Positions 235 through 6,926 of a stretch of 39,657 nt of DNA are shown here, one piece after another; position 1 is the stretch's first letter, and each line of letters begins with the position of its first letter. The stretch is taken from NCBI GenBank assembly GCA_023480825.1, contig JAMCWQ010000088.1, positions 1 to 39,657 of the forward strand. The letters run 5' to 3'. Both the position numbers and the translations under genes were made by a program. This DNA is from Chloroflexota bacterium. GTDB lineage: Bacteria > Chloroflexota > Chloroflexia > JAMCWQ01. The notes under the pieces are model-generated. The model was not told the DNA's origin and did no database searches. It saw nothing but the letters and a program-made list of their open reading frames with translations.

Positions 235-1188
235 ATGCAAGTGCGTCAGGATGGCCCTGAGCCTAGAATGGGCGCGGTGCTGGTCGTGGGAGGCGGAATA
301 GCCGGCCAGCGCGCTGCTCTAGATTTGGCCGAGGCCGGTATAAAGGTCTACCTGGTGGAGAGCTCCAGCTCTCTCGGCGGCAAAGTGGCGCAGATCGGAA
401 TGATGTTCCCTACTCATGACTGTGTTCTTTGCCGTGGCAGCTCAGACCATGGCCATGGATGCTCGAGGCCCACCATTTCCCCCGCGTTCCTGGATCATAG
501 CAAACATCCGAACATTGATATCATGACCATGACCGAGGTCAGCGGCGTCTCGGGGTCGGCCGGGAGCTTCACCGTCAGCCTTAGCCGGCAGCCTCGCTAT
601 GTCGACCCCACAAAATGTACGAGTTGCGGGGCATGCGAAAAGGTGTGCCCGGTAGAGCTTCCCAGCGAATTCCAGCTTGGGCTGGCTACGCAGAAGGCGA
701 TCCATAAGACCGCTCCCCGTTCCGCCCCGGATGCCTACATTGTGAACAAGGGCGACTATTGCCTGAACTGCAACAAGTGCGTCGAGGTTTGCGCTCCAGG
801 TGCGATTGATTTGCAGGAGCAGGAGCGAGTCCAAGAAGTAGAAGTTGGAGCCATTATCCTTGCTCCCGGATTCCAATTGTATGATCCGGCGCTCAGTGAG
901 GAGTTCGGTCATGGCCGGTATACGAACGTGCTAACCGGGCTCGAACTAGAAAGGCTTCTCAGCCGGACTGGGCCGACATTCGGATCGCCTAAGCGGCCAT
1001 CTGATGGAAGCGCACCGAAGCGGGTTGCCTGGTTGCAGTGCATCGGCTCCCGTGATCAGAACCACAACTACTGCTCATCCATTTGCTGCATGTTCGCCAC
1101 AAAAGAGGCCATCTTGATGAAGCAGCGTGAGCCTGATGTCCAGCGCCGCGTGTTCATGATGGACGACCGGGCATTCAACAAGGAATAG
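235..1188 (+). CDS. hdrA: HdrA-like FAD/4Fe-4S heterodisulfide reductase subunit A, N-terminal part (ends at in-frame TAG; continues in the same frame as 1270-3351)
   Basis: GGGIAGQRAALDLAEAGIKVYLVE FAD-binding motif; two ferredoxin-type clusters (CTSCGACEKVCP, CLNCNKCVEVCAP); HdrA-type CIGSRDQNHNYCSSICCMFATKEA. ATG at 235 preceded by AGGAGG (the ORF track extends to 142). Confidence 0.85.
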   Translation: MQVRQDGPEPRMGAVLVVGGGIAGQRAALDLAEAGIKVYLVESSSSLGGKVAQIGMMFPTHDCVLCRGSSDHGHGCSRPTISPAFLDHSKHPNIDIMTMTEVSGVSGSAGSFTVSLSRQPRYVDPTKCTSCGACEKVCPVELPSEFQLGLATQKAIHKTAPRSAPDAYIVNKGDYCLNCNKCVEVCAPGAIDLQEQERVQEVEVGAIILAPGFQLYDPALSEEFGHGRYTNVLTGLELERLLSRTGPTFGSPKRPSDGSAPKRVAWLQCIGSRDQNHNYCSSICCMFATKEAILMKQREPDVQRRVFMMDDRAFNKE

Positions 1189-1269
1189 CAGGCCTACCGC
1201 GACCAGGCCAAGGATGAGTATGGAATAGAGTACACTCGCTGCCGCATCTCCAGCCTCAAAGAGGACCCC

Positions 1270-3351
1270 TTGACAAAGGACGTCCTTGTGCGCTACCAGT
1301 CGGAAGACGGAGAGATAAAGACGGAGGCCTTCGATATCGTCGCACTCTCCACCGGCTCCGAGCCGGCTGCCAAGGCCGCGGACCTGGCCGGCCGGTTGGG
1401 TATCGAGCTCAACGAATGGGGTTTCTGCAAGACCGAAAAGTTCAACCCTCTGCAGACCACCATGCCGGGTATCTTCGTTTGCGGAACATTCGCCGGGCCG
1501 AAGGAAATCTCTGAGACCCTGGCGGAAGCGGCGGGAGCAGCGGCCGGGGCACTGCAGTTTTTGTCCCCGGTTGCCGGTTCCCTTTCTCCGGCTCCGGAGT
1601 ATCCCCCGGAGCGCTCTGTCTCCGGTGAGAAGCCGAAAGTCGGCGTGTTCGTCTGCTCTTGTGGTGAGGAAATCTCCAAGGTAGTCGACTTGGACCAAGT
1701 GGTGAGCCATGCGCAGAGATTGCCGGACGTGGCCTACGTGGAGAAGGTCGCCTACGCCTGCGATCCCGATACCCGCAAGCAGATTGCCGGAAAGATGAAT
1801 GAGCTGGGACTGAATCGCCTGGTGATGGCGGCCTGTAGCCCGAGAACTCATGAGTCAATGTTCCAGGAATTGCTCCGCCAGGCCGGCTTGAACTCCAATC
1901 TGGTGGATATTGCCAACCTGCGGGACCAGTGCGCCTGGGTGCACGTTGATGAGCCGGAAATGGCGACTCTCAAAGGCAAAGACCTCACGGCGATGGCTGT
2001 GGCCAGAGCCAGGCTGCTCGAACCAATCGAGACCTACGTCGTGGAGCCTAAGAAGAGTGTGCTTGTCATCGGTGGCGGCGCCACGGGCATGAGCAGCGCG
2101 CTGGCCATCGCTCAAGAAGGCTTCGGCGTGACCCTAATCGAGAGAGAAGCGGAGTTGGGCGGGAATTTGCGCCGCCTGTATTCCACCGCGGAAGGTGCTG
2201 ATCCACAGCAGTTCTTGAAGGAACTGATTAGGGAAGTAGAGTCAAACGACCGCATAACGGTAATGCTTAATACCGAGCTGGTGAAATCCACCGGTTCGGC
2301 CGGCGATTTTCGTTCGACCGTTGCCACCATGGTAGCGGGAAATGGCGGCAGTACTGAGACGGAAATCGAGCATGGCGCAACGGTGGTGGCCACCGGTGCG
2401 GTGGAGTCGCGGCCGGGCAAGTATGGGCTCGGGCAGGACGACAAGGTAATCACCCAGCAGGACCTGGAGGCTGTCATTGCCCAGCACTCCGAAAGAATAA
2501 AATCGGCCAACTCCATAGTGATGATCCAATGCGTGCAGCCGGAGGACCAGGCGGAAGCATATTGCAGCCGTGTCTGCTGCACCGCCGCCGTGAAGAATGC
2601 TATCCGGATCAAGGAGCTAAGCCCACGGACGGATGTGTATGTGCTGTACAAAGACATGATGACCTACGGTTTCCGTGAGCAATACTACACGGAAGCACGG
2701 CGCAGGGGCGTCGTCTTTGTACGGTATAGCGATGATAGACAGCCGGATGTGCGACTGGAAGCCGGGAAGTTGAGGGTAGTCGTCGAGGACCCTATCTTGG
2801 GCGAGCGGATGGCGTTACAGTCTGACCTGCTGGTTCTCAGCACCTCTATTCGCCCCGCTGAGACCAATACCGGGCTGGCGTCCGTCCTTAGTCTCCCGTT
2901 GTCGCGGGAGGGATTCTTCCTCGAGGCTCATCTCAAGATGCGGCCGACTGACTTCGTGGCGCCGGGCATCTTCTTGGCTGGAATGGCGCATTACCCCAAG
3001 TTTGTGGACGAGTGCCTGAGCCAGGCAGCGGGCGTTGCGGCTGGCGTCGCCGGACTGCTTTCCAAGGACCAGGCCAAGTTCCGGGGCGAGGTGGCCACGG
3101 TTGATGCCACCAAGTGCGCGGCCTGCCTCACCTGCGTACGCGTCTGCCCGTTCGATGTTCCCTTCATCAATGCCGAAGGTGTCGCCGAGGTAGACCCCAA
3201 GAAGTGCCAAGGCTGTGGGACGTGCTCCGGCGAGTGCCCGGCAAAGGCGATTCGCCTGTTCAACTACTACGATGCCCAAGTACTGGCCAAGACCAAGGCT
3301 CTGGCCGGCCAGTTTGTCAAAATCGGGGAGGTAGCAGCAATTGGAGAATGA
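1270..3351 (+). CDS. hdrA: HdrA-like protein, C-terminal part (second FAD module plus two C-terminal 4Fe-4S motifs); same frame as the upstream ORF
   Basis: GGGATGMSSALAIAQEGFGVTLIE, CVQPEDQAEAYCSRVCCTAAVKNA, CAACLTCVRVCP, CQGCGTCSGECP. Codons 1189-1269 between the ORFs read as HdrA-like sequence (QAYRDQAKDEYGIEYTRCRISSLKEDP). Confidence 0.85.
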   Translation: MTKDVLVRYQSEDGEIKTEAFDIVALSTGSEPAAKAADLAGRLGIELNEWGFCKTEKFNPLQTTMPGIFVCGTFAGPKEISETLAEAAGAAAGALQFLSPVAGSLSPAPEYPPERSVSGEKPKVGVFVCSCGEEISKVVDLDQVVSHAQRLPDVAYVEKVAYACDPDTRKQIAGKMNELGLNRLVMAACSPRTHESMFQELLRQAGLNSNLVDIANLRDQCAWVHVDEPEMATLKGKDLTAMAVARARLLEPIETYVVEPKKSVLVIGGGATGMSSALAIAQEGFGVTLIEREAELGGNLRRLYSTAEGADPQQFLKELIREVESNDRITVMLNTELVKSTGSAGDFRSTVATMVAGNGGSTETEIEHGATVVATGAVESRPGKYGLGQDDKVITQQDLEAVIAQHSERIKSANSIVMIQCVQPEDQAEAYCSRVCCTAAVKNAIRIKELSPRTDVYVLYKDMMTYGFREQYYTEARRRGVVFVRYSDDRQPDVRLEAGKLRVVVEDPILGERMALQSDLLVLSTSIRPAETNTGLASVLSLPLSREGFFLEAHLKMRPTDFVAPGIFLAGMAHYPKFVDECLSQAAGVAAGVAGLLSKDQAKFRGEVATVDATKCAACLTCVRVCPFDVPFINAEGVAEVDPKKCQGCGTCSGECPAKAIRLFNYYDAQVLAKTKALAGQFVKIGEVAAIGE

Positions 3352-3796
3352 AGCAGAAAAGAGCCCGAACGGGTATGAGCCGAAGGTGGTGGCCTTCGCC
3401 TGCCAATATTGTGCATATTCCGCGGCTGATCTGGCCGGACCAACCGGGTTGCAGTACCCGGCGAATGTGCGACTGGTGAAGCTACCCTGCACAGGCAAGC
3501 TGGATGTTCTCTACATTCTCGATGCTTTCGAGAACGGCGCCGATGCCGTGTTTATTGCCGGCTGTCTGGATGGAAACTGCCATCACGTCGAGGGGCCACT
3601 GAGAGCCAAACGACGACTTGTGCTGGCCAACAAGATCCTCAATGAACTAGGGATTGGCGCAGATCGCTTGGGCATGTACCAGATGTCCGGTGGTGAGAGT
3701 ATCCGCTTTGTCGAGGCGGCTCGCGAGATGACTGACCGGGCAAGGCAGTTGGGACCAAGCCCGCTGAACCAGCGGAAATCAGCGGCCAATGAGTAG
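3341..3796 (+). CDS. mvhD: MvhD-type [2Fe-2S] hydrogenase/heterodisulfide reductase delta subunit
   Basis: VVAFACQYCAYSAADLAG, LPCTGKLDVLYILDAFENGADAVFIAGCLDGNCHHVEG are diagnostic of MvhD; TTG start overlaps the hdrA stop. Confidence 0.92.
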   Translation: MENEAEKSPNGYEPKVVAFACQYCAYSAADLAGPTGLQYPANVRLVKLPCTGKLDVLYILDAFENGADAVFIAGCLDGNCHHVEGPLRAKRRLVLANKILNELGIGADRLGMYQMSGGESIRFVEAAREMTDRARQLGPSPLNQRKSAANE

Positions 3797-3844: not shown

Positions 3845-4513
3845 ATGATAATTGCGGAGCAGAAGACCCTCGAGGAAATCAAGCAGATCGTGGCCGGCTA
3901 CAATAAGCTCTTGGTGGTCGGCTGCGGAACCTGCGTGACGGTTTGTTTCGCCGGTGGTGAGAAGGAAGTCGGGATACTGGCCAGTGAGCTACGAATGGCG
4001 CGCCAGATGGATGGCCAACAATTGGAGACGGTTGAGCGGACGATTCAGCGCCAGTGCGAGTGGGAATTTGTCGACCAGCTCAAAGACGCCATCGAAGACT
4101 GTGACGCCATTCTGTCTATGGGGTGCGGTGTCGGCGTTCAAGGGCTGGCAGAGCGTTTCCCTACCAAGGTAGTGCTGCCGGCGCTAAACACTAAAGGCAT
4201 GGCCCTAACGGTTCAGGAAGGGCTGTGGGCTGAGAGGTGCGCCGGCTGCGGCAACTGCGTACTGGACAAATTTGGGGGTGTGTGTCCGATCGCCCGGTGC
4301 TCCAAGAGCTTGCAGAACGGGCCATGCGGAGGCTCGGTCAACGGGAAATGTGAAATCGATCCGGAGATCGATTGCGGATGGCAGCTAGTCTATGACCGCA
4401 TGAAAGCCATCAACATGCTGGACAAACTGTACGAGGTCCAGGAGATCAAGGACTGGTCGACCGCTCGCGATGGTGGGCCTAGAAGAATCAATAGGGAGGA
4501 TTTGCGACTGTGA
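3845..4513 (+). CDS. metV: MetV-like methylenetetrahydrofolate reductase C-terminal-domain zinc/iron protein
   Basis: VVGCGTCVTVCFAGGEKEVGILASELR, CAGCGNCVLDKFGGVCPIARCSKSLQNGPCGG; directly upstream of and overlapping metF. Confidence 0.9.
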   Translation: MIIAEQKTLEEIKQIVAGYNKLLVVGCGTCVTVCFAGGEKEVGILASELRMARQMDGQQLETVERTIQRQCEWEFVDQLKDAIEDCDAILSMGCGVGVQGLAERFPTKVVLPALNTKGMALTVQEGLWAERCAGCGNCVLDKFGGVCPIARCSKSLQNGPCGGSVNGKCEIDPEIDCGWQLVYDRMKAINMLDKLYEVQEIKDWSTARDGGPRRINREDLRL

Positions 4514-5472
4514 AAGCCGGGAGCAATTTGGAACGAGTTCTTGAGGCCGGTCACTTTGCGGTGACGGCGGAGCTGGGTCCTCCCAAGAGCGCCGACGCCA
4601 AAGTGATTCACGACAAGGCCGAGACCCTGAAAGGGAACTGCGACGCCGTCAACATTACCGATAACCAGACGGCGATGGTGCGCATGTCCAGCATCGCAGC
4701 AGGAACCATAGCCCTGCAGCATGGGCTGGATCCTGTGATCCAGATGACCTGCCGGGACAGAAATCGCATTTGTATGCAGAGTGACCTGCTGGGTGCGTAT
4801 GCCCTGGGCGTACGCAACGTGTTGTGTCTTAGTGGTGATCATCAGCGCTTCGGCAACCACCCCCAGGCCAAGAATGTCTATGATGTAGACAGCATGCAGC
4901 TTATCCGCATGGTAAAGAACATGCGTGATGAGAAGAAGTTCCAGTGTGGCGAGGCCATCAAGGTCGAACCCCGGTTCTTCATAGGCGCGGCAGCCAACCC
5001 GTTTGCCGACCCCTTCGAGTTCCGGCCCATCCGGCTCGGCAAGAAGGTCGCGGCGGGTGCCGATTTTGCGCAGACCCAGCTTGTTTACAATGTCGAGAAG
5101 TTCATCAACTTCATGGAAATCGTGCGGAAGATGGGCATTCATGAGAAGATATACATCCTTCCGGGAGTGGGGCCCATCAAGTCCGGCAAAGCGGCCGAGA
5201 TGATGGCGACCACGGTGCCTGGGTTGGAAGTCCCGGACGAGATCGTCCAGCGTATGAAGAAGGCCGAGGACCCTAAGGCTGAAGGGATCAGCATCTGCCT
5301 GGAGATCATCGATCGAGTTCGTCAGATTCCGGGTGTTGCCGGGATCCACATTATGGCAATCGAGTGGGAGAAGGCAGTGCCTGATATAGTGCAGCGGGCC
5401 GGACTGCTCCCCCGTCCGGTTATCGAAGTCGTGGAAGAGCCGCAGGAACCGCCTGCTCAAAAGCCGGCTTAG
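4510..5472 (+). CDS. metF: Methylenetetrahydrofolate reductase
   Basis: VTAELGPPKSADA, DAVNITDNQTAMVRMSS, GVRNVLCLSGDHQRFGNHP, GAAANPFADP, FAQTQLVYNVEKF; GTG start overlaps metV. Confidence 0.93.
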   Translation: MKAGSNLERVLEAGHFAVTAELGPPKSADAKVIHDKAETLKGNCDAVNITDNQTAMVRMSSIAAGTIALQHGLDPVIQMTCRDRNRICMQSDLLGAYALGVRNVLCLSGDHQRFGNHPQAKNVYDVDSMQLIRMVKNMRDEKKFQCGEAIKVEPRFFIGAAANPFADPFEFRPIRLGKKVAAGADFAQTQLVYNVEKFINFMEIVRKMGIHEKIYILPGVGPIKSGKAAEMMATTVPGLEVPDEIVQRMKKAEDPKAEGISICLEIIDRVRQIPGVAGIHIMAIEWEKAVPDIVQRAGLLPRPVIEVVEEPQEPPAQKPA

Positions 5473-5480
5473 GTGCGGAG

Positions 5481-6926
5481 ATGCCGATGATTGCTGAAAT
5501 TCCAGTAGCCGAAGGATTCGCGGGCGAGGTCGCTACACGCTCTGGGCAAAACGCCTTTCTGTGCTATCAATGTAAGAAGTGTACGAGCGGCTGCCCGGTT
5601 TCCGATCAGATGGATTTTACTCCGAACGAGATTCTGCGCATGGTCCAACTGGGCCAGCGTGACAAAGTGCTTCACAGCAAGACGATATGGTTGTGTGCGT
5701 CTTGCCAGACCTGCAGCACGCGTTGCCCTCAGGGTATCGACATCGCTCGCATCATGGACACCATGAAGTCGATATCTTACGCCGAGGGCGTTAAATCACC
5801 AATACCATCCGTGGAGATCTTCAACAAGGTCTTCCTGCGCTGGGTAAAGGTTACCGGCCGCTCCTACGAAGCGGCCCTGCTCGGTGAGCTGAAGATGCGC
5901 TTGATGGCCAAGGGTAAGCTGGATCCCGACCAGTTCATGAAGGATGCAGTACTGGGCCTCAAGCTGTTCACTGCCGGGAAGCTCCCGGTTCTGCCGCCTG
6001 TTCATCTGCCGGGGAGAAGAGGGCAGGATCGTACACCGAAGACCGGTAAGACGGTAGCCTACTATCCCGGCTGCTCGCTCCATTCCAGCGGGAAGGAGTT
6101 CGACATCTCGACACGCGCTGTCTGCGAGAGGCTTGGCCTCAACCTTGTGGAGCCGGAGGGCTGGGGTTGTTGCGGCGCGTCTTCGGCACATGCGGTTTCC
6201 CATGAACTGGCAACCACACTGCCGGTGAAGAACCTGTCTCTAGTGGAACAGGCCGGCTTCGATGAGGTTGCAGTGCCCTGCGCTGCGTGCTTCTCTCGCC
6301 TCAAGGCAGCGGAGTATGACATGGAGGAAGACCCGAAGCTGCGCAGTGAAGTGGGCAGAGAGGTGGGCTATGACTACCGGGGCAGCGTGAAGGTCCGCCA
6401 TCTTCTCGACACGATCATCGAGGATGTAGGGCTCGAGAAGGTCAGCGGCCGGGTCTCCCAACCGCTCAAGGGGCTGAAGGTCGTTTGCTACTATGGCTGT
6501 TTGTTGACGCGGCCACCCAAGACCACCGGGGCGCCTCACCCCGAGTACCCGGTGCACATGGACAAGCTAATGGAGGCTCTCGGGGCGGAGTCGCTGGATT
6601 GGTCGTACAAGACCGACTGCTGCGGCGCTTCCTTTGCCCTCACGGAGCCGGATGTCGTGATGCGGTTGACCCAGCGCATTCTGCAGAACGCCAAGGATGT
6701 TGGAGCGGACGCGGTGGTCGTCGCTTGCCCGCTGTGCCATGCCAATCTGGATACGAGGCAGGGACAGATTGCCGAGTTGTATGGCCGGCGTTATGATCTG
6801 CCGATCTTCTACTTCACGGAGTTGATGGGGCTCGCACTGGGTGTCGAGGCGAAGAGCCTGGGGGCTCAGAAGCACATGCAGGACCCCATGCCTCTGCTGT
6901 GGGCCAAGGGGCTAGCGGCTACTTAG
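5481..6926 (+). CDS. hdrCB: HdrC-HdrB fusion (heterodisulfide reductase-like, two 4Fe-4S motifs plus two CCG domains)
   Basis: CYQCKKCTSGCP and CASCQTCSTRCPQG (HdrC); YYPGCSLHSSGKEFD, GCCGASSAH, CAACFSRLK, CYYGCLLTRP, DCCGASFALT, CPLCHANLD (HdrB CCG). Confidence 0.92.
   Translation: MPMIAEIPVAEGFAGEVATRSGQNAFLCYQCKKCTSGCPVSDQMDFTPNEILRMVQLGQRDKVLHSKTIWLCASCQTCSTRCPQGIDIARIMDTMKSISYAEGVKSPIPSVEIFNKVFLRWVKVTGRSYEAALLGELKMRLMAKGKLDPDQFMKDAVLGLKLFTAGKLPVLPPVHLPGRRGQDRTPKTGKTVAYYPGCSLHSSGKEFDISTRAVCERLGLNLVEPEGWGCCGASSAHAVSHELATTLPVKNLSLVEQAGFDEVAVPCAACFSRLKAAEYDMEEDPKLRSEVGREVGYDYRGSVKVRHLLDTIIEDVGLEKVSGRVSQPLKGLKVVCYYGCLLTRPPKTTGAPHPEYPVHMDKLMEALGAESLDWSYKTDCCGASFALTEPDVVMRLTQRILQNAKDVGADAVVVACPLCHANLDTRQGQIAELYGRRYDLPIFYFTELMGLALGVEAKSLGAQKHMQDPMPLLWAKGLAAT

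Follow-up and report, generated by a model that had tools for sequence, protein, structure and literature searches.

A single in-frame TAG in the hdrA gene of an HdrABC-MvhD-MetVF operon: probably a sequence error or a very recent mutation

Does the TAG that interrupts hdrA in a Chloroflexota-like draft genome end translation, or is it read as an amino acid? The window analysed here, 39,657 nucleotides long, belongs to contig C46 of a draft of 1.57 Mb in 111 contigs that is 51% complete. The hdrA frame (235-3351, plus strand) comprises 1,038 codons and has exactly one stop before its end, the TAG at 1186-1188, which is codon 318. Once this codon is bridged, the frame matches HdrA families and reads as a tandem-type HdrA with 59 full-length relatives. 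The bridged protein aligns without interruption to the solved HdrA chain 5odc_A over query residues 15-390, which places the TAG within a single conserved domain. The coding score, positive on either side of the TAG and high in the downstream part, indicates that the two ORFs are not juxtaposed by chance, and 720 codons follow without a frameshift. The earlier note had described a continuous HdrA split by one TAG, and we confirm this as a real feature of the sequence given.

Adjacent to hdrA on the same strand lie mvhD (3341-3796, FlpD/MvhD family), metV (3845-4513, methylene-THF reductase C-terminal family, PF12225), metF (4510-5472) and an hdrCB fusion (5481-6926), with mvhD, metF and hdrCB assigned by family matches. 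All four genes are open, in agreement with the earlier observation that the other subunits of the operon carry no lesion. The gene set is that of the HdrABC-MvhD-MetVF complex of Moorella thermoacetica and Chloroflexi DscP3, and a fusion of hdrC and hdrB like the one in the window has been described for DscP3 (PMC5736913). The window differs from these systems by the one in-frame TAG, owing to which the operon lacks an uninterrupted HdrA frame. The operon itself is a known bacterial energy-metabolism system.

The column aligned with the TAG is occupied by Tyr in 37 and Phe in 22 of the 59 full-length relatives of the same HdrA type, and by a stop in none of them. The closest relatives, about 53% identical, belong to drafts of Anaerolineae and other Chloroflexota, and the four best-scoring ones carry TAC, TAC, TAT and TAC at the column, each one base off TAG. 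One relative (L095) shares the order hdrA-mvhD-metV-metF-hdrCB with the window and has an intact hdrA with TAC at this column. These results agree with the expectation from the first reading of the sequence that an aromatic residue belongs at this position and that a change from TAC or TAT is the simplest origin. Sense codons in relatives, which the earlier note had named as pointing to a simple error or a recent mutation, were found in all relatives compared, which all come from outside the order of the window. As a side observation, five related Chloroflexota (L038, L040, L045, L101 and L103) carry a pair of large hdrA paralogues before metV-metF-hdrCB, with an mvhD after each, whereas the window and L095 have a single hdrA.

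Single internal stops are also found in HdrA frames of another type (L083, L087-L090, L094 and others), where the stop stands in place of a conserved Cys site (PTNDC-S-stop-I) and recurs in many relatives. We take these stops to be UGA codons for selenocysteine. In contrast, the TAG in the window occupies a Tyr/Phe column and is shared by no relative.

A one-base change that turned a Tyr codon of an otherwise normal hdrA into TAG, arising either as an error or as a very recent mutation, is very probably the explanation. Such a change would have altered a single base of TAC or TAT at codon 318, and we infer that the TAG terminates translation here. If the TAG is real, translation would end after 317 residues, within the FAD domain, and the complex would be left without a functional HdrA, its flavin subunit, in which electrons are taken up and split. 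In a draft metagenome bin, a lone in-frame stop should be viewed with caution and not be taken as recoding, nor should the presence of a working electron-bifurcating methylene-THF reductase in this organism be judged from annotation alone.

As for the source of the TAG, a consensus or strain-mixture error of this fragmentary draft seems slightly likelier than a real mutation. Isolated stops do occur in draft hdrA genes, because the hdrA-type genes of L054 and L065, both drafts, carry isolated TAA codons, at positions other than the column of the window. A same-frame scan combined with family searches, which was not exhaustive, revealed at least two further interrupted genes in the same draft. 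An MttB-family methyltransferase fragment at a contig start (L174, C60, 3-539) has an in-frame TGA at C60:243, and a histidine kinase gene on the minus strand (L163, C49, 8759-9583) has an in-frame TAG at C49:9179. The upstream part of the kinase gene is apparently out of frame as well, and it is likely a pseudogene or an error. Most same-frame neighbours in the scan were dismissed as ordinary adjacent genes or antisense artefacts. Each of the three stop lesions, including that of hdrA, lies no more than 1.4 kb from a contig end, a feature noticed after the fact and in three cases, and a zone of 1.5 kb around contig ends and joins takes in about a quarter of the assembly. This pattern of lesions favours, without proving, an assembly or strain-consensus error. 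A second hdrA on the minus strand (L209, C95, 11533-14034) is disrupted at 10-N scaffold joins, and at one of these the flanking sequence is duplicated. Lesions are not rampant in the draft, since 20 ABC-transporter matches contain no internal stop.

A real, very recent nonsense mutation is the other source to be considered, possible though somewhat less probable. The TAG, if real, is young, because the frame downstream shows so little further decay. Among the 37 conserved-cysteine columns, 35 are kept in the HdrA of the window, the exceptions being position 304 (Arg), before the TAG, and position 799 (Thr), and no CxxCxxCxxxC cluster is affected. The ratio of identity after the stop to identity before it is 0.81 for the window and 0.87 ± 0.02 among the relatives, and the blocks on either side of the TAG are more divergent in the window than in the relatives. 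When identity after the stop was fitted on identity before it, the mean residual of the window was -2.6, and the lowest value among the relatives, -2.8, came from an uninterrupted gene. We rejected relaxed selection after the TAG as an explanation of these values, which lie within the range of uninterrupted relatives and mostly reflect a long-branch effect rather than proving decay.

The earlier note had also offered readthrough, pyrrolysine and split translation as alternatives, and we found no positive support for any of them. It is very unlikely that a near-cognate tRNA reads through the UAG part of the time and so yields some full-length HdrA. A CAG codon directly after UAG is part of a known, mildly leaky context, and the TAG in hdrA is followed by CAG and by an unbroken frame. 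However, the RNA fold in the 122 bases after the TAG is no better than that of shuffled sequences (z-score -0.34), giving no sign of a stimulatory structure, and the stop is conserved in none of the 59 relatives. Hence, neither of the two features expected of programmed readthrough, a conserved stop or a downstream structure, was found.

A shade less likely still, the UAG could be translated into full-length HdrA via pyrrolysine or a tRNA that suppresses amber codons, encoded in the half of the genome that is missing; if true, UAG recoding would extend outside methylamine methyltransferases and reach a core electron-bifurcation subunit. We give even less credence to the narrower proposal that pyrrolysine itself is inserted, perhaps neutrally, at the Tyr position. 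The draft encodes several MttB-family methyltransferases, the pyrrolysine machinery could sit in the half of the genome that was not recovered, and the reference list of PMC9723677 records a neutral appearance of pyrrolysine in tRNAHis guanylyltransferase. The window hdrA resembles the pyrrolysine methyltransferases (MttB, MtbB and MtmB) in having UAG in frame, but it differs from them in that searches of the recovered half did not reveal the machinery and that the site lacks conservation, with an in-frame TAG in 0 of 59 relatives, none of the same order. Searches of the recovered half (the draft is 51% complete) found no PylS, PylB, PylD, MtmB or MtbB, and none of its 18 tRNAs has a CUA anticodon. 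Since half of the genome is absent, the missing pyl genes lower the odds of pyrrolysine without closing them. In addition, no internal stop interrupts any of the three full-length MttB homologues. The TAG near an MttB fragment on C43 was discarded as a candidate, as it lies upstream of the ATG of the fragment and interrupts nothing.

The use of TAG as a terminator also speaks against pyrrolysine. TAG ends 305 of 663 long ORFs in the whole draft (46%), ahead of TGA (239) and TAA (119), and this share exceeds the 21% of stops in Sifarchaeia, a value likened to that of pyrrolysine-encoding bacteria (PMC9723677). TAG as the commonest stop is unusual for a bacterium at 58% GC. In the window, TAG terminates metF, hdrCB and ruvB, as previously claimed, and likewise mvhD; elsewhere in the draft, full family matches to CoaD, ribosomal protein S7, EF-P and others end at TAG. 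With TAG not depleted as a terminator, genome-wide reassignment is excluded, and the earlier argument to this effect is borne out more strongly than it was first made. A prfA match on C82 was rejected as RF1 because its SPF motif is that of release factor 2, leaving RF1 unseen in the recovered half, which at 51% completeness is uninformative.

The least credible reading is a split HdrA, in which the protein from 235-1188 and a second one started at TTG 1270, a few bases downstream of AAAGAGGA, would assemble into a working subunit, but the cut falls within a domain that is continuous in the solved HdrA, and the 27 codons between TAG and TTG, untranslated in this model, still match HdrA. Moreover, AAAGAGGA encodes a conserved KEDP motif, and the Shine-Dalgarno-like stretch before the TTG, AAAGAGGACCCCTTG (1258-1272, plus strand), codes for the conserved KEDP-L. 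The same codons are Shine-Dalgarno-like in 35 of the 59 relatives, which have no need of a start there, and AAAGAGGA is simply conserved Lys-Glu-Asp coding sequence.
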